Shown: piece after piece, positions 11,325-20,480 of the stretch
Numbering within the stretch: the first letter of the stretch is position 1
Layout of the letters: the number at the start of each line of letters is the position of its first letter
Assembly (NCBI GenBank): GCA_024636345.1
Contig: JAGXHG010000030.1
Coordinates: 1-64,000 of the forward strand
Source: Desulfobulbaceae bacterium
Lineage (GTDB): Bacteria; Desulfobacterota; Desulfobulbia; Desulfobulbales; Desulfocapsaceae
Length of the DNA: 64,000 nucleotides
Direction: 5' to 3'
Notes under the pieces: model-generated
What the model saw: the letters and a program-made list of their open reading frames with translations, nothing else
Database searches by the model: none
Told to the model about the DNA's origin: nothing
Position numbers and translations under genes: made by a program

Positions 11325-12934
<1,610 letters not shown>

Positions 12935-13021
12935 AGGCCACTTCAGACATGCAGGCTGAAGGTGAAAGAGTAGGTGTGTCCCTGGGGCGCTTAAAAATAG
13001 AGCAAGAAATGAGGTTACTGT

Positions 13022-13285
13022 ATGGCTAGAATTACCGTGGAAGATTGTTTGGAACAGATTGGTGACGATAATAGGTTTAATCTGGTTCATCTCACTGTTG
13101 AACGCATTAAACAGCACCGACATGGCGAACCTTATCTGGTACCGGGAAACAATAAAGAGATCGTCATGACCCTGCGGGAAATCGCCGCCGGCAAGGTTAC
13201 CTTTGCTAATATCAAGAAGCTGACAGATCACTCTCGAAAGGAAGGTCAGGAAGATAACGTTTCTGAGCAGGTCGTTGGGGCGTAA
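13022..13285 (+). CDS. rpoZ: RNA polymerase omega subunit
   Basis: This 87-residue protein starts MARITVEDCLEQIGDDNRFNLVHLTVERIKQ, the conserved omega N-terminus. It continues through the NNKEIVMTLREIAAGKV helix that wraps the beta-prime C-terminus, and ends in a variable acidic tail. It stabilises RNA polymerase and contributes to ppGpp binding in proteobacteria. It lies about 90 bp after purA and may share its transcript. The 184 bp after it shows no other gene. Confidence 0.95.
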   Translation: MARITVEDCLEQIGDDNRFNLVHLTVERIKQHRHGEPYLVPGNNKEIVMTLREIAAGKVTFANIKKLTDHSRKEGQEDNVSEQVVGA

Positions 13286-13469
13286 GCAAACCGCCTTTTG
13301 ATAATAATTGTAACTTTGGAATGTTCTGCACGGAGAAGAGGGGCGATAGTTTTTTATACCCCAGGAATACTTCTTCCGGCGGTGCATTCGTGGCTGTAGT
13401 AACTTAATGGTCATGAATGTAAGGGTTGTTGAGTAGCGGCTTTAAATTTTTTTTGTTCGAGTTGGAAGA

Positions 13470-14606
13470 ATGCCTAGAGATTATTACGAAGTATTGTCTG
13501 TAAGCCGGACGGCAAGCAGCGGTGAGATTAAGAAAGCTTATCGGGTCCTTGCCATGAAACACCATCCGGATCGGAATCCGGATGACAAAGAGGCGGAGTC
13601 TCTTTTTAAAGAGTGTGCTGAGGCCTATGAGGTGCTCAGTGATGTCCAGAAACGCAAGATCTATGATACCTATGGGTATGAAGGTCTGAAGAGCAGTGGC
13701 TATCAGGGGCCGGGGAATTTTGAAGATGTTTTCTCCGGGTTTGGTGATCTGTTTGGGGATCTCTTCGGGAGACGCGGAGGAGCTCAACCCCGACGGAATG
13801 GCCCGCTCCCCGGTAATGATCTTCGTTACGATGCCACCATCTCGTTCATGGAGGCCATGCATGGTGTGGCCAAAGAGGTGGATCTGACCAGGCGTGATAC
13901 CTGCTGGACTTGCGAAGGTTCAGGCTGCCGTCCCGGTCACAAGAGGGAGACCTGTCCCTTTTGTCATGGACGTGGCCAGGTGATTCGTTCCCAGGGATTT
14001 TTTCAGGTCAGTAGTACCTGTCCTCAATGCCAGGGCGAGGGAGAAATTGTCACTGATCCATGTGCCGACTGTAACGGCTCTGGACTGGTGAATAAAAGCA
14101 AGAAGGTTTCGATTAAGATACCTGCCGGTGTTGATCATGGCGCCCGGATGCGCCTGCGCGGAGAAGGCGAAGGCGGCCGTCGCGGCGGGGCTGCCGGTGA
14201 CCTCTATGTGGTTATTCATGTAGAGGAACATGAGTTTTTTAAACGGGAAGGGGATACTATTTACTGTCATTTCCCGGTGTCCATGGTTCAGGCAGCCCTT
14301 GGCTGTAAGGTAGAGGTGCCGACGATACATGGGAAAAAGAATTTAAAAATACCGGCCGGAAGTCAATCTGGAGCCATGTTTACCTTGAAGCATGAAGGAG
14401 TACCCAGTCTGCGTGGTAGTGGCCGAGGGGATATGGTGGTTGAACTTCAGGTGAAGACGCCGGTGAAGCTTTGCGAAGAGCAGAAAGAAATCCTGCGTAA
14501 ATTCGATGAACTCTGTCGGGAGCACGGGCATCATAAAGAACAGGAGGGCTTTTTTAGTCGACTTTTTAGTGAAGTCCTTGGTAAAAAGTCCAAAGAGGAA
14601 GAATAG
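13470..14606 (+). CDS. dnaJ: Chaperone DnaJ (Hsp40)
   Basis: This 378-residue type I DnaJ has a J-domain with the HPD motif ([11 protein letters not shown] near residue 30) and a Gly/Phe-rich linker. Four CxxCxGxG zinc repeats follow ([32 protein letters not shown]) at about 145-205, then two C-terminal substrate-binding domains. It stimulates the DnaK ATPase. No dnaK or grpE is adjacent here. It lies four bases before moaC, so the two are cotranscribed. Confidence 0.97.
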
Positions 14607-14609
14607 TCA

Positions 14610-15107
14610 ATGAGTCAGGTGGATAGAGATTCAGGGTTTACCCATTTTGATGGTGATGGCAATGCCAGGATGGTTGATGTCAGCGGCAAAAATGAATCAA
14701 CCAGGGTAGCGCTGGCCGCCGGGAGTGTCAGCATGTCGGCACAGGCTTACGCCTTGGTAAAAAGTGGATCCATGGCCAAAGGTGATGTCTTAGGTGTTGC
14801 CCGACTGGCAGGAATTATGGGTGCTAAAAAGGTTGATGAGCTCATACCCCTTGCCCATCCCTTGATGATTACCAGGACCAATGTGGATTTTGTCTTTCAT
14901 GATGAGGATTGCTCCATAGAGATTCAGGCAACAGTGGGAATCTGTGGCAAGACTGGTGTGGAGATGGAGGCCCTTACAGCTGTTTCGCTGGCAGCTTTGA
15001 CTATTTACGATATGTGTAAAGCAGTTGATAAAGCCATGATGATTAATAATATCCGTCTGTTGAAAAAAACAGGTGGTAAAAGTGGGACCTTTGTACGACA
15101 AGAATAA
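14610..15107 (+). CDS. moaC: Cyclic pyranopterin monophosphate synthase MoaC
   Basis: This 165-residue protein acts in the first stage of molybdenum cofactor synthesis with MoaA. It carries the conserved [15 protein letters not shown] run, the [26 protein letters not shown] signature and a C-terminal KSG. Active-site Lys and Asp are within the second motif. It sits directly behind dnaJ. The rest of the moa pathway is outside the window. Confidence 0.96.
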
Positions 15108-15176
15108 GGGTTTTGTTGTTTTCCTATAATATATGTAACCCTTACAGGGGTGCTGGATAATTTGGGGGATGATTGA

Positions 15177-15542
15177 ATGGATCAAAAAGAGTTGGACAGG
15201 TTCAGAAAGTTACTTGAGGATAAACGTGCCGAGATCCTGAGTGAAGCGGAACGTACATTGACTGAACTGACCGATCGTAGCGGGAACATTCCAGACCCGA
15301 ATGATCGGGCCAGCGCTGAGGCTGATCGGAGTTTTGAACTTCGTATCCGTGATCGGGAGAGGAAATTACTTCCAAAGATTGAGGATGCTCTTGAGCGAAT
15401 CAATGACGGTACTTTTGGCGAATGTGAGGGATGTGGTGAAGAGATCGGTATGAAGCGACTTGAGGCCCGGCCTGTGACGTCGTTGTGTATTGACTGCAAA
15501 ACCCTTCAGGAAAAGAAAGAAAAAGGACATGGGACAGATTAA
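15177..15542 (+). CDS. DksA/TraR-family zinc-finger transcription factor
   Basis: This 121-residue protein has a long N-terminal coiled coil (about residues 1-75, including NDRASAEADRSFELRIRDRERK) and a C-terminal four-cysteine zinc finger (CEGCGEEI, then CIDCKTLQE). This is the layout of DksA-type proteins that enter the RNA polymerase secondary channel and act with ppGpp. An acidic Asp at the coiled-coil tip (DPNDRAS) matches the functional position in DksA. It is two bases from galT, so the two are in one operon. Confidence 0.93.
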   Translation: MDQKELDRFRKLLEDKRAEILSEAERTLTELTDRSGNIPDPNDRASAEADRSFELRIRDRERKLLPKIEDALERINDGTFGECEGCGEEIGMKRLEARPVTSLCIDCKTLQEKKEKGHGTD

Positions 15543-15544
15543 CC

Positions 15545-16570
15545 ATGCCTGAGTTACGAAAAGATCCTGTTCTTGGCCGGTGGATTATCATTGCCCAGGA
15601 GCGTGCCAAGCGGCCTACCGATTTTGTTGTTGCAGAGACTCCATCTGCGGGAGGTTTTTGTCCCCTTTGTCCTGGAAATGAAAACACAACCCCCCCGGAG
15701 GTTCTTGCTTACGGCCGACCGTATGGGGCGCCTGCGAATACCCCTGGCTGGCTGGTGCGGGTTGTTCCCAATAAATATCCAGCCCTTGTCATTGAAGGAA
15801 ATCTCGACCGTCAGGGAGAGGGACTTTATGATAAGATGAATGGGATCGGTGCTCATGAGGTGATCATCGAGAGTCCGCGTCATGAAGATGTTTTTGCCAA
15901 GCTGGCTCTTCCTCATATGGTCGTGGTATTTCAAGCCTTTCGGTCCAGGATTCAGGATTTAGAGCGTGATCCTCGATTCCTTTATGTCCTGGTTTTTAAG
16001 AATTATGGACGTGCTGCCGGGGCCTCGTTGGAACATTCACATTCACAGCTTGTGGCCTTGCCTATTCTTCCCCGGATGATTGTTTCGGAACTTCAGGGAA
16101 CTTTGGAGTATTATAAGTACAAGGAACGCTGTATTTATTGTGATATTATCCGCCAGGAAATCCAGCAAAAGGTTAGGGTGGTATGTCAGAACGAACTTTT
16201 TATCACCATGACTCCTTTTGCGCCGCGGACACCTTTTGAGATGTGGATTCTCCCCAAACAGCATGAGTCCGGTTATCACAACCAGAACGATGAGCAGCTT
16301 GCGGCTCTGGCTGATATCTTTTCTGAGACCTTGCGCCGTCTTGATGCCTGTATCCCTGGTGTTCCTTATAACTTTGTGCTTCACACCCAACCCTTGCGTT
16401 CTGAAAGTATGAAGCATTTTCACTGGCATTTTGAGATTGTTCCCAAATTAACATCTATTGCTGGATTTGAATGGGGCTCCGGATTTTATATTAACCCCAT
16501 GCCACCCGAAGAGGCTGCATTGTATCTGCGTGAATCACTTGAAAAAGGAGCACAGGAGGCAAGGCCATGA
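15545..16570 (+). CDS. galT: Galactose-1-phosphate uridylyltransferase (GalT family)
   Basis: This 341-residue HIT-superfamily enzyme has an N-terminal zinc site (CPLCPGNE), the catalytic-type LEHSHSQLVALP around 165, a second cysteine pair CIYCDI, and KHFHWHFEIVPKL near 285. It should transfer UMP between UDP-glucose and galactose-1-phosphate. In such anaerobes it may act on other sugar or nucleotide phosphates, as some relatives do. The stop overlaps the next gene by four bases. Confidence 0.9.
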   Translation: MPELRKDPVLGRWIIIAQERAKRPTDFVVAETPSAGGFCPLCPGNENTTPPEVLAYGRPYGAPANTPGWLVRVVPNKYPALVIEGNLDRQGEGLYDKMNGIGAHEVIIESPRHEDVFAKLALPHMVVVFQAFRSRIQDLERDPRFLYVLVFKNYGRAAGASLEHSHSQLVALPILPRMIVSELQGTLEYYKYKERCIYCDIIRQEIQQKVRVVCQNELFITMTPFAPRTPFEMWILPKQHESGYHNQNDEQLAALADIFSETLRRLDACIPGVPYNFVLHTQPLRSESMKHFHWHFEIVPKLTSIAGFEWGSGFYINPMPPEEAALYLRESLEKGAQEARP

Positions 16571-16917
16571 AGAAAATCTTACTGGTTGATGACGAAGAGG
16601 GTATTCAACTGTTGTATCAGGAAGAATTCCAGGATGAGGGTTACGAAGTGATTTCGGCCTTTACTGGAGAAGAGGCTCTGGAAAAATTCAAGTCAGAAGT
16701 GCCGGATTTGGTCATTCTTGATATCCAAATGCCGGGGATGAATGGAATTGAGGTCTTGAGGCAAATGAAGATGATTGCCCCTCATCTCCCGATTATTCTC
16801 AGTACTGCTTATCATGAATATACACAGGATCTGAGCGCCTGGGCATCTGATGAGTTTATTGTTAAATCCCCGGACATGCAGAAATTGAAAGATGCTGTCT
16901 GCAAGTATCTGGGATAG
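16567..16917 (+). CDS. Single-domain response regulator (CheY-like)
   Basis: This 116-residue receiver domain has no output domain. The acidic pair is at residues 8-9 (VDDEEG), the phospho-acceptor is Asp52 (LVILDIQMPGMNG), the Thr/Ser switch is in IILSTAY, and the Lys is in FIVKSP. It overlaps galT by four bases. No histidine kinase is nearby, so its partner must be elsewhere. It may act by protein-protein contact rather than DNA binding. Confidence 0.92.
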   Translation: MKKILLVDDEEGIQLLYQEEFQDEGYEVISAFTGEEALEKFKSEVPDLVILDIQMPGMNGIEVLRQMKMIAPHLPIILSTAYHEYTQDLSAWASDEFIVKSPDMQKLKDAVCKYLG

Positions 16918-17041: not shown

Positions 17042-17782
17042 ATGAAAGATATCCAGAGTGAGCTCGACCATAGACGTATCAATATCAAGAAGGTCGGCGT
17101 CAAGACCATTTCATACCCTATAACCGTATTGGATAAGGCCAGGAATCATCAGCATACTGTGGCCACGGTCAATATGTATGTGAATCTGCCTCATCGGTTC
17201 AAGGGAACCCATATGAGTCGTTTTGTTGAGATTCTGAATCGGTTTCATGGGCAGATTGATCTGGGAAGTTTTCATCATATTCTCGAGGAGATGAAAGAGC
17301 GGTTGGAGGCAGAGGCTGCTCATATGGAGATGGGGTTTGCCTATTTCCTGCCGAGAAAGCAAAACCCGGATATCTTGAATGCCTGCCGTTATGAGTGCCG
17401 GATGCATGGTTCTCTTGACCAGAGTGATGACCTTGAATTCCAGTTTACCGTCCCGGTGTCGTTACCTTTGAAAGAAATGGCGGTATCTGGATTGCCCCGT
17501 TCTCGTGGTCATTGGGGACATGCGGTTATTGCGGTCAGGTTCCGTCATTTTATCTGGATTGAAGATATTATCAACCTGGTTGAACTGGCCATAGAGCAGG
17601 CTATTGGTCAGGAACAAGAACAGAGCAGCCAGGATCTGCAGGGATCGTTGTCTGTGGAGTCACTTACCCGGCACATTGGGGCTCGTCTTGCGGAATTATC
17701 TGCACTAAAATGGTTTTCGGTAACGGTGGAGAATCTTTTTGAAGGTTATTCTACCTTTGCCACGACTTCTTATTCTTCCTAA
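17042..17782 (+). CDS. FolE2-family protein (GTP cyclohydrolase IB fold) lacking the catalytic motif
   Basis: This 246-residue protein matches the GTP cyclohydrolase FolE2 family along its length: VGVKTISYPITVLD near the start, FKGTHMSRFVEIL, LEAEAAHMEMGFAYF, FIWIEDIINLVE and ALKWFSVTVEN near the end. The hallmark CPCSKEIS-GAHNQR segment, which supplies the catalytic cysteine and histidine, is replaced by LPLKEMAVSGLPRSRGH (residues about 142-158). The C-terminal NFESIHNHSA-type motif is also lost. There is no frameshift, so the gene appears maintained. It is unlikely to make dihydroneopterin triphosphate; its real role is unknown. Confidence 0.85.
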   Translation: MKDIQSELDHRRINIKKVGVKTISYPITVLDKARNHQHTVATVNMYVNLPHRFKGTHMSRFVEILNRFHGQIDLGSFHHILEEMKERLEAEAAHMEMGFAYFLPRKQNPDILNACRYECRMHGSLDQSDDLEFQFTVPVSLPLKEMAVSGLPRSRGHWGHAVIAVRFRHFIWIEDIINLVELAIEQAIGQEQEQSSQDLQGSLSVESLTRHIGARLAELSALKWFSVTVENLFEGYSTFATTSYSS

Positions 17783-17809: not shown

Positions 17810-19885
17810 ATGGCCGATCTTCTCTTTGAAATAGGTACCGAAGAACTTCCTGCTGGTTTTATTCAACCTGCATTGGAACAACTGCAGCAGAATTTTATCA
17901 GAAAGGCAGCTGAACTGCAGCTTGCTTATGGGCAGGTAAAGGTGGTAGGGACCCCGAGACGTCTGGCCTTGATTGTTCAGAACCTTGAAGAGCGGCAGCC
18001 GGATCGCCGTGAAGAGCTTATGGGACCTTCCACCAAAGCAGGACTTGATGCTGATGGCGGGTTCAGCAAGGCGGCCCAGGGCTTTGCCCGTTCAAAAGGG
18101 GCTGAGGCCACTGCTCTGCAGATTGTGGATACGGCGAAAGGTCAATATTTGATGTTGGTCAGAGAGGTGGTAGGCGTTCAGACCACTGAACTGCTGCCTG
18201 ATCTCCTTCGCGGGCTTCTTGCTGAATTTTCTTTTGCTAAATCCATGAAGTGGGGCTGTAACAGTAACGCCTTTGCCCGTCCTATTCAATGGCTGCTGGC
18301 CCTTTATGGTCAAGATACTGTCGATCTTTCCCTTGATGGTATTGTCTCTTCGCATAGCAGTCGTGGACATCGATTTATGGCACCGGACAGTATTCGGATC
18401 CAGGGCGCTGCCGGTTACGAGCAGCAACTGGCGGACGCCCATGTCCTGGTGGATCCTGCCCGTCGCCGTCAGGCAGTGTTGGAAGAGATTGAGCGGGCAG
18501 TGGCTGAGAACCCCGGACTTGTCGGCGCCCATGTTGCCATTGATGAGGCCCTGGTTGATACGGTCACCAATCTTGTGGAATGCCCGTTTGGAGTTTGTGG
18601 CTCCTTTGATGCGCGTTTCCTTGAATTACCTGAAGAGGTGTTGATTACCTCCATGCGTGAGCATCAAAAATATTTTCCAGTGCTTGATGGACAGAAACGT
18701 TTGCTTCCTTTTTTTGTGGCGGTGAACAACACCCGGGTCTCCGATATTGCTCTGACCCGCACGGGACATGAACGTGTTCTGCGTGCCCGCCTTGAAGATG
18801 CTTTATTTTTCTTTGGTGCTGACAAGGAAAAACGGCTTGAAGATCGTTTTTCCGATCTGACTGGGATTATTTTTCAGGCCAAGCTGGGAACCATGCTGGA
18901 GAAGAGTGAGCGTCTGATAAAACTGGCAGCACTGCTGGCTGAAAAACTGGCGCCGGAGTATATTGATGCTTCCAGGCGGGCAGCCCAACTGTGCAAAATT
19001 GACCTTCTGACCAATATGGTCGGGGAATTTCCATCTCTGCAGGGTGACATGGGGGCTGCCTATGCCATGAGTGATGGAGAGTCTGCAGAAGTGGCTCTGG
19101 CTATTCGGGAGCACTACCTGCCGAAGAGGGCCGGTTCTGAACTGCCTGTTTCAACTCCTGGTACGCTTGTTGCGCTGGCTGATCGGCTTGACACCCTGGT
19201 CGGCTGCTTCGGTATTGGTCAGCAGCCAACTGGCACCACCGATCCTTTTGGCCTGCGCCGACTGGCCATTGCTCTGTTGCATATTATTGGTGACCGTGGT
19301 TACAGCTTGTCACTTCGAGAAATGGTTTATAAAGCCTTGGCCCTCTATGGCGATAAGGTTGACGGAAGTGCTGTGACCGTTGATGCGGTTATGGTCTTTA
19401 TCAAAGGACGTTTTGTCAATGATGCTGTCAGCAGAGGGCTTGATCAGGAGGCGGTGGAGGCGGTGACCTCCCTTGATTTTGATGATGTCAATGATTGCAG
19501 AAAGAAGATTGACGCCCTGGCTGCCATTCGTAACGAGGAGGCCTTTGCAGTTTTGGCGGCAGCATTCAAGCGGATCCGCAATATTATCAAAGACCATGAA
19601 GGGGGAGCGATTGTCTCCGCGCTTCTGGTGGAAGAGGCTGAACGAAATCTTGCTGCTGTCTATGCCGATATCTCAGCAGCAGCGCAACCCTTATTGGCTC
19701 AGAAAGAGTATGGTCAGGCGCTTGCTGTTATGCTGGCCTTGAAGGAGCCCGTGGATCTTTTTTTCGATTCGGTTATGGTTATGGTTGATGATGAAAAAAT
19801 CCGTGCTAACCGTCTTAATATGCTTACGGCTATTGCCCAGCTTTTTCTCCAGATCGGTGATATCTCCAGGATGACAGTTTCATAG
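17810..19885 (+). CDS. glyS: Glycyl-tRNA synthetase beta subunit
   Basis: This 691-residue protein starts MADLLFEIGTEELPAGF, the conserved beta-subunit N-terminus. It contains LITSMREHQKYFPV in the centre, QPTGTTDPFGLRR, and a C-terminal DALR-type anticodon-binding region. It forms the alpha2-beta2 bacterial GlyRS. The usual upstream glyQ (alpha) is not adjacent; the preceding gene is the FolE2-like protein 27 bp away. The alpha subunit must be encoded elsewhere. Confidence 0.97.
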   Translation: MADLLFEIGTEELPAGFIQPALEQLQQNFIRKAAELQLAYGQVKVVGTPRRLALIVQNLEERQPDRREELMGPSTKAGLDADGGFSKAAQGFARSKGAEATALQIVDTAKGQYLMLVREVVGVQTTELLPDLLRGLLAEFSFAKSMKWGCNSNAFARPIQWLLALYGQDTVDLSLDGIVSSHSSRGHRFMAPDSIRIQGAAGYEQQLADAHVLVDPARRRQAVLEEIERAVAENPGLVGAHVAIDEALVDTVTNLVECPFGVCGSFDARFLELPEEVLITSMREHQKYFPVLDGQKRLLPFFVAVNNTRVSDIALTRTGHERVLRARLEDALFFFGADKEKRLEDRFSDLTGIIFQAKLGTMLEKSERLIKLAALLAEKLAPEYIDASRRAAQLCKIDLLTNMVGEFPSLQGDMGAAYAMSDGESAEVALAIREHYLPKRAGSELPVSTPGTLVALADRLDTLVGCFGIGQQPTGTTDPFGLRRLAIALLHIIGDRGYSLSLREMVYKALALYGDKVDGSAVTVDAVMVFIKGRFVNDAVSRGLDQEAVEAVTSLDFDDVNDCRKKIDALAAIRNEEAFAVLAAAFKRIRNIIKDHEGGAIVSALLVEEAERNLAAVYADISAAAQPLLAQKEYGQALAVMLALKEPVDLFFDSVMVMVDDEKIRANRLNMLTAIAQLFLQIGDISRMTVS

Positions 19886-20006: not shown

Positions 20007-20405
20007 TTATTTATGGCAAAGTTTACAGCCTAGTTTTTTGGTGTCAACATTCTTCTCTTTATGGCAATCTTTGCAGTTGGTATGGGCAGCATCTTTGAAG
20101 GTAGCAATTTTTTTGTCCAGGCCGGCAGCCTTGTTATGACAGGTCTCGCACTTCTCGATCTTCATGCCCTCTGTATAGGCAACCTGCTTGCCATCAGCAC
20201 CTTTGGTATGATGGCATTCGCCACAGGCAAGTTTTTCCTGATGTTTGGCATGTGGAAACATGGCTGGTTTCGGCTTGGCAGCGGCATCAACGGTGGCCTG
20301 CAGGGTCATCTCTGCGGGACCTTTGTCGGCCATGGCATTGGCACTAAATCCCATGCCCAGCGTTAAAGCGAATGCAGCAGCATAGGTTACAATTTTTTTC
20401 ATCAT
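20007..20405 (-). CDS. Periplasmic tetrahaem cytochrome c3
   Basis: This 132-residue protein is preceded by a signal peptide ending near FSANAMA. Four CxxCH haem sites are present: CGECHH, CETCH, CKDCH and CKLCH. Additional histidines (FPHAKHQ, AAHTN) can act as distal ligands. Class III cytochromes c3 shuttle electrons from periplasmic hydrogenases and formate dehydrogenases to membrane complexes in sulfate reducers and relatives. The start at 20405 has a GGGG site six bases upstream; a longer frame to 20459 has no support. A strong promoter lies just upstream. Confidence 0.95.
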   Translation of the reverse strand: MMKKIVTYAAAFALTLGMGFSANAMADKGPAEMTLQATVDAAAKPKPAMFPHAKHQEKLACGECHHTKGADGKQVAYTEGMKIEKCETCHNKAAGLDKKIATFKDAAHTNCKDCHKEKNVDTKKLGCKLCHK

Positions 20406-20440
20406 TTTTCCCCTTTTGTTAAAGAATTGAACAGCGTAGA

Positions 20441-20454
20441 TGAATGACCATTCA
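20441..20454 (-). promoter_or_regulatory. 14 bp palindrome in the cytochrome c3 leader
   Basis: TGAATG-AC-CATTCA is a perfect dyad. It lies about 27-40 bases downstream of the -10 box, where a bound repressor would block transcription. TGAATG half-sites are used by several TetR-family repressors, but no regulator gene is nearby. Confidence 0.4.
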
Positions 20455-20480
20455 CTCATGTATCTTTTCGTGAAGACTCA

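Follow-up and report, generated by a model that had tools for sequence, protein, structure and literature searches.

A FolE2 homologue of Desulfobulbales that lacks the metal site, probably the substrate-binding partner of a second FolE2 paralogue in a divided GTP cyclohydrolase IB

Active sites can be assembled from more than one polypeptide. GTP cyclohydrolase of type IB (FolE2) is described as a homotetramer whose active sites sit at the interfaces of three adjacent subunits (PMC6718149). In trypanosomatids, the active form of deoxyhypusine synthase is a heterotetramer in which an impaired paralogue is combined with a dead one (PMC3663545), and AdoMetDC forms a heteromer in which the catalytic protein is joined by its dead paralogue, the prozyme (PMC5201418). 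Animal GTP cyclohydrolase I is controlled by a second protein, GFRP (PMC7750480). Searches of an open-access library turned up no paper describing a GTP cyclohydrolase that is heteromeric. Here, we describe a FolE2 homologue, called V, encoded in a 64,000-nucleotide stretch of Desulfobulbaceae DNA (the window), together with a second FolE2 paralogue of the same genome, called C2. We consider it probable, from the pattern of complementary degeneration between the two sequences, that V binds the substrate, without catalysis of its own, as one subunit of a hetero-oligomeric GTP cyclohydrolase IB.

V is read from a clean, uninterrupted frame (Table 1). An earlier note on this DNA had described its product as a full-length FolE2 homologue without the catalytic cysteine and histidine, and this description holds: the Pfam family GCHY-1/FolE2 (PF02649) matches residues 1-231 at 9e-41, with 140.5 bits against a gathering threshold of 25, and C147, C149 and H159 are absent. 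The same family is matched by 33/33 aligned V members. The NCBIfam FolE2 equivalog cut-off (215 bits) is missed by V, which scores 114, and passed by C2 (239) and by C1 (311), the latter being the FolE2 sequences fetched from other Desulfobacterota, outside Desulfobulbales. By sequence, V is a member of PF02649; because it failed both the equivalog and the catalytic-residue tests, it is not classed as a GTP cyclohydrolase by itself. When the AlphaFold model of V (mean pLDDT 80) is compared with crystal structures of FolE2, including 5K95 with 8-oxo-GTP, the TM is about 0.7; the model is also weakly similar to urate oxidase, QueF-like proteins and DHNA aldolase.

Residues are numbered as in N. 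gonorrhoeae (Ng) FolE2, with the positions confirmed on the Ng sequence. C147, C149, H159, E201 and H246, which we take to be the metal ligands and catalytic residues of FolE2, are all missing from V. The CPCSKEIS-GAHNQR region has been replaced, as noted earlier, with both motifs gone, and the RPDE segment has been deleted as well. The accompanying remark on a missing C-terminal substrate motif was only partly right, because ESIHNHSAY is indeed lost but the base-anchoring E206 (Ng E216) is kept and invariant. Within 17465-17518 of the window, where canonical FolE2 reads NQRG, V has gained a conserved GxWG (G in 97%, W in 98%).

Table 1 Features of the V locus and of the V protein, with positions in the window
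Feature	Position	Strand	Description
purA, dnaJ, moaC, dksA	11636..15542	+	Rest of the syntenic block
GalT/HIT-family nucleotidylyltransferase	15545..16570	+	Conserved upstream neighbour
Stand-alone receiver-domain response regulator (RR)	16567..16917	+	Conserved upstream neighbour
V	17042..17782	+	ATG 17042, TAA 17782; 246 aa; putative subunit for substrate binding in a hetero-oligomeric GTP cyclohydrolase IB
DIQxxxDxRR N-terminal element	17048..17077	+	Residues 3-12; D6, Q8, D12, R14 (Ng); 100% in V, absent from C2
KGTHMSRF loop	17201..17224	+	Residues 54-61; unchanged throughout V and canonical FolE2 but missing from C2; may bind the triphosphate
Replacement of CPCSKEIS..GAHNQR	17468..17518	+	Residues 143-159, LKEMAVSGLPRSRGHWG; without the metal/catalytic residues, with GxWG newly conserved
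Site of deleted LKRPDExxxTE segment (metal ligand E201)	17597..17650	+	E201 missing from V
E206 (Ng E216)	17657..17659	+	Base-anchoring Glu; invariant in all groups
EGYSTFA in place of canonical ESIHNHSAYA	17741..17761	+	H246/H248 lost
glyS (glycyl-tRNA synthetase beta subunit)	17810..19885	+	Conserved neighbour on the downstream side, 27 bp from V

The clean frame had been read earlier as a sign of selection, and the substitution rates bear this out. Against eight near relatives, dN/dS of V is 0.04-0.075 for the gene as a whole and 0.02-0.05 for its N half; purifying selection on V is strong (dN/dS about 0.05). A search of relatives, which the earlier note had proposed, recovered more than 90 orthologues with the same residue losses and clean frames; in one database scan, the best 80 loci all belong to Desulfobulbales-type bacteria, with 53-91% identity, intact frames and the same losses. 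A sequencing artefact, including a frameshift pair hiding a CPCSK motif, which the earlier note had named as a possible refutation, is ruled out by these orthologues in the same state and by the low dN/dS. The loss of catalytic residues might also be taken to mark V as a relic, structural or in decay, whose function is not needed, or as an assembly artefact; this is scarcely credible, as besides the low dN/dS and the clean frames of the orthologues, the N half is conserved as in active enzymes and retention is near-universal.

V stands in a block of the order purA-dnaJ-moaC-dksA-galT-RR-V-glyS, which is kept across the Desulfobulbales families tested, with a median V-glyS spacing of 43.5 bp across V loci. 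Other Desulfobacterota do not share this block. Because it is confined to the order and its genes are unrelated, the neighbourhood was not used as a basis for the function of V; no tie of V to tetrapyrroles was seen. Just past glyS, the window encodes a small multihaem cytochrome c-type protein with several CxxCH motifs (20007-20459, - strand). That V became a metal-free tunnelling-fold enzyme of a new kind, unrelated to C2 and with a pterin or deazapurine, for instance, as its substrate, has in its favour the newly arisen GxWG, the several metal-free activities that this fold hosts and the weak likeness of the model to urate oxidase, QueF-like proteins and DHNA aldolase. We regard it as very improbable all the same: the C half, where the old catalytic site lay, evolves fast and is partly deleted in some lineages, and the neighbours include nothing of a pterin pathway except moaC.

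A second, canonical-looking folE2, which the earlier note had suggested looking for, is present elsewhere in the same genome. C2 (G000:C32:58888-59613) lies directly after metF, in the metF operon, and its presence rules out V as the sole FolE2 of this genome. The C half of C2 is perfect, with complete metal-site motifs, but the N-terminal DxQ..DxR and KGTHMSRF elements are lost, the loop reading RESCVTVF, FRQSCVSVF, ERVASSVSLM and so on. Since the FolE2 equivalog cut-off is passed, such a protein looks unremarkable to an annotator; and since C2 keeps the fold without the motif, KGTHMSRF is not required merely for folding. In one other genome (G033:C102; L092, L238), C2 has been relocated and is convergent with glyS, and V, glyS and C2 together span about 3.7 kb.

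The losses in the two paralogues mirror each other. Motifs were counted in the fetched set of 94 V, 43 C2 and 39 C1 sequences. KGTHMSRF occurs in 94/94 V sequences, which contain none of the C-half motifs, whereas all C-half motifs occur in 43/43 C2 sequences and H.SR in 0; C1 combines the motifs of both halves (CPCSK, HNQR, RPDE, ESIH and KGTHMSRF) in 39/39. At the level of residues, D6, Q8, K56, G57, T58, H59, S61 and R62 are 100% conserved in V and C1 and nearly or wholly gone from C2, apart from S61, which is left in 48%. Conversely, C147, C149, H159, R198, D200, E201 and H246 are 100% conserved in C1 and C2 and gone from V. E216 and E178 are found in 100% of V, C2 and C1. Mean identity within groups (N half/C half) follows the same division, being 0.66/0.68 in C1, 0.68/0.44 in V and 0.56/0.74 in C2, as does identity against C1 (0.55/0.28 for V, 0.41/0.62 for C2). 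The variant was not found beyond Desulfobulbales, all FolE2 sequences fetched from other Desulfobacterota being canonical. The earlier note had suggested that V may have become a binding protein, a regulator or an enzyme of another kind in pterin or tetrapyrrole metabolism; this is not the best reading, as the second FolE2 encoded in these genomes shows the reciprocal losses, a pattern that points towards one enzyme shared by the two and away from a new role.

The enzyme could have been divided as follows. An ancestral Desulfobacterota FolE2, a single gene with both half-sites, would have been duplicated in the Desulfobulbales stem; V would then have retained DxQ..DxR, KGTHMSRF and the base-anchoring Glu while losing the metal site, and C2 would have retained the metal/catalytic half while losing the N-half elements. 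FolE2 sites are formed between neighbouring subunits, so that V and C2 in a mixed oligomer could rebuild complete sites, C2 contributing the metal and cysteines and V the loop; homo-oligomers could not do this. The KGTHMSRF loop of V would bind the GTP triphosphate, an assignment that we assume by family analogy, from the triphosphate-binding loop of type IA enzymes. V can hardly be a self-sufficient FolE2, judging from the residues it lacks, and neither V nor C2 would be active alone. We infer both the physical association of V with C2 and the identity of the residues that would meet in the mixed site.

Co-occurrence was assessed in 161 Desulfobulbales genomes, all at least 90% complete except the window's own, which were classed by profile scores. 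Both V and C2 are present in 151/161 (three of them with one partner fragmentary), V only in six, C2 only in one and neither in three. The pair is carried by all 17 genomes assembled in five contigs or fewer, and in the single C2-only genome glyS itself is split between contigs. A Fisher test of the co-occurrence, which ignores kinship, gives p = 0.0005. The three genomes with neither protein form one genus, so the absence of both counts as a single event. In a set of 148 Desulfobacterota genomes, neither V nor a second FolE2 was found in those outside Desulfobulbales, with at most one full-length FolE2 in each.

The genus without the pair (G231-G233, L212-L214) has a single FolE2 with every motif, and the C-half tree places this protein with those of Proteobacteria (SH-aLRT 99). 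Since the relatives of this genus carry V and C2, the likeliest explanation of its sequences is that the pair was replaced by one acquired gene. Upstream of glyS these genomes have different genes (NAD synthetase, sensor kinase), and they give no clear metF match. Type IA FolE was found in 1/107 Desulfobulbales genomes (L231, G247:C83), in an assembly that is 8% contaminated, and this lone copy is probably foreign DNA.

The six drafts with V but without C2 (G042, G046, G050, G205, G298 and G305) are 90-97% complete and consist of 160-350 contigs; V is intact in them, except for the G305 copy, which is cut by a contig end. Because these drafts are so fragmentary, assembly gaps can explain the missing C2. 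A clear metF is also missing from 7/8 genomes without a full C2, which may reflect unbinned contigs, but metF is seemingly absent in the pair-less genus too, and in the relative of G205 it is not adjacent to C2. Part of Desulfobulbales has a third, MptA/FolE2-like paralogue (L112-L119, e.g., L118:2959-3957, - strand) with RGIHMSR and CPCTQ..THSQRS, which scores below both the MptA and the FolE2 equivalog cut-offs and in L115 and L118 adjoins a CCA tRNA nucleotidyltransferase-like gene. An intact copy occurs in four of the six V-only drafts (G046, G050, G205 and G298), and this excess of carriers hints at real C2 loss. If C2 has truly been lost there, V must be useful without it, which would favour either of two other readings. 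In one, V is interchangeable, completing C2 and, where C2 is absent, pairing with the MptA-like paralogue, so that it would serve two cyclohydrolases with different products; we give this only a small chance.

The other, which we hold to be unlikely, makes V an independent nucleotide or pterin sensor that binds GTP or dihydroneopterin triphosphate via KGTHMSRF and E206 without hydrolysis, while C2, its triphosphate site altered, makes dihydroneopterin triphosphate alone. The signal would perhaps be feedback on C2, as with GFRP on animal GCH1, or would pass to the neighbouring response regulator or glyS. Such a role would suit the retention of ligand-type residues after loss of the metal site, the conserved locus beside the response regulator and glyS, the passing of the FolE2 cut-off by C2 and the few drafts that retain V without C2. 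However, it leaves unexplained why C2 lost exactly what V kept and why both are absent together from the genus with an intact FolE2.

The divided enzyme has on its side the reciprocal and uniform losses, the near-universal co-occurrence, the affinity of the C2 C half with Desulfobacterota FolE2, the near-absence of type IA FolE and the disappearance of both V and C2 where a complete FolE2 is present (one genus, one event). Against it stand the different loci of V and C2, the unaided passing of the FolE2 cut-off by C2 and the V-only drafts.

On the origin of the pair, C2 forms one clade (support 97) within Desulfobacterota FolE2 (81) in the C-half tree, separate from the proteins of Proteobacteria; the N-half tree has one clade for V and one for C2 (100 each), and its deep forks are without resolution. 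These clades, and the affinity of C2 with Desulfobacterota FolE2, fit a duplication in the Desulfobulbales stem, although the trees were short and quick and the pair may instead have come by transfer from another Desulfobacterota lineage. Over 37 genomes, the V-C2 distance correlation is 0.82 vs. 0.75 for V-galT; after control for galT and RR, the partial r of V-C2 is 0.60, compared with 0.33-0.54 when a control gene replaces one partner. Glycyl-tRNA synthetase was left out of the controls because it is incomplete in some loci. This covariation is supportive of a partnership, with a moderate excess over the controls.

If the proposal is true, Desulfobulbales would have a GTP cyclohydrolase I whose active site is shared out between two paralogues, a state fixed across a bacterial order. 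Nature would here offer a clear example of a duplication after which the two copies degenerated in complementary parts of the active site, complete with the outgroup state (a single intact gene) and a replacement (the genus with an acquired intact gene). Annotation would also be corrected: standard models call C2 a FolE2, Pfam does so for V, and neither may work alone, which matters for the metabolic reconstruction of these sulfur-cycle bacteria.

Among known systems, FolE2 itself (PF02649; N. gonorrhoeae NGO0387, N. europaea NE1163) resembles V in full-length homology, the N-half elements and the base-anchoring Glu, but V is without C147, C149, H159, E201 and H246 and scores below the NCBIfam equivalog cut-off. 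MptA, the archaeal GTP cyclohydrolase IV, belongs to the same superfamily and has a relative in the third paralogue of Desulfobulbales; unlike V and C2, MptA-like proteins keep both H-M-S-R and CPCT/HSQRS, unsplit. GFRP is not known to be a cyclohydrolase paralogue supplying active-site residues. Known FolE2 enzymes are described as homotetramers (PMC6718149), whereas here two paralogues would share one site. Deoxyhypusine synthase and AdoMetDC/prozyme are like V and C2 in pairing a catalytic with a dead paralogue, both being essential and active only or mainly as the heteromer. They differ in being other enzymes, of eukaryotes, and in an activation described as allosteric, while the residue pattern of V and C2 suggests complementation of a site. 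The trypanosomatid deoxyhypusine synthase is the closest working parallel to V and C2.
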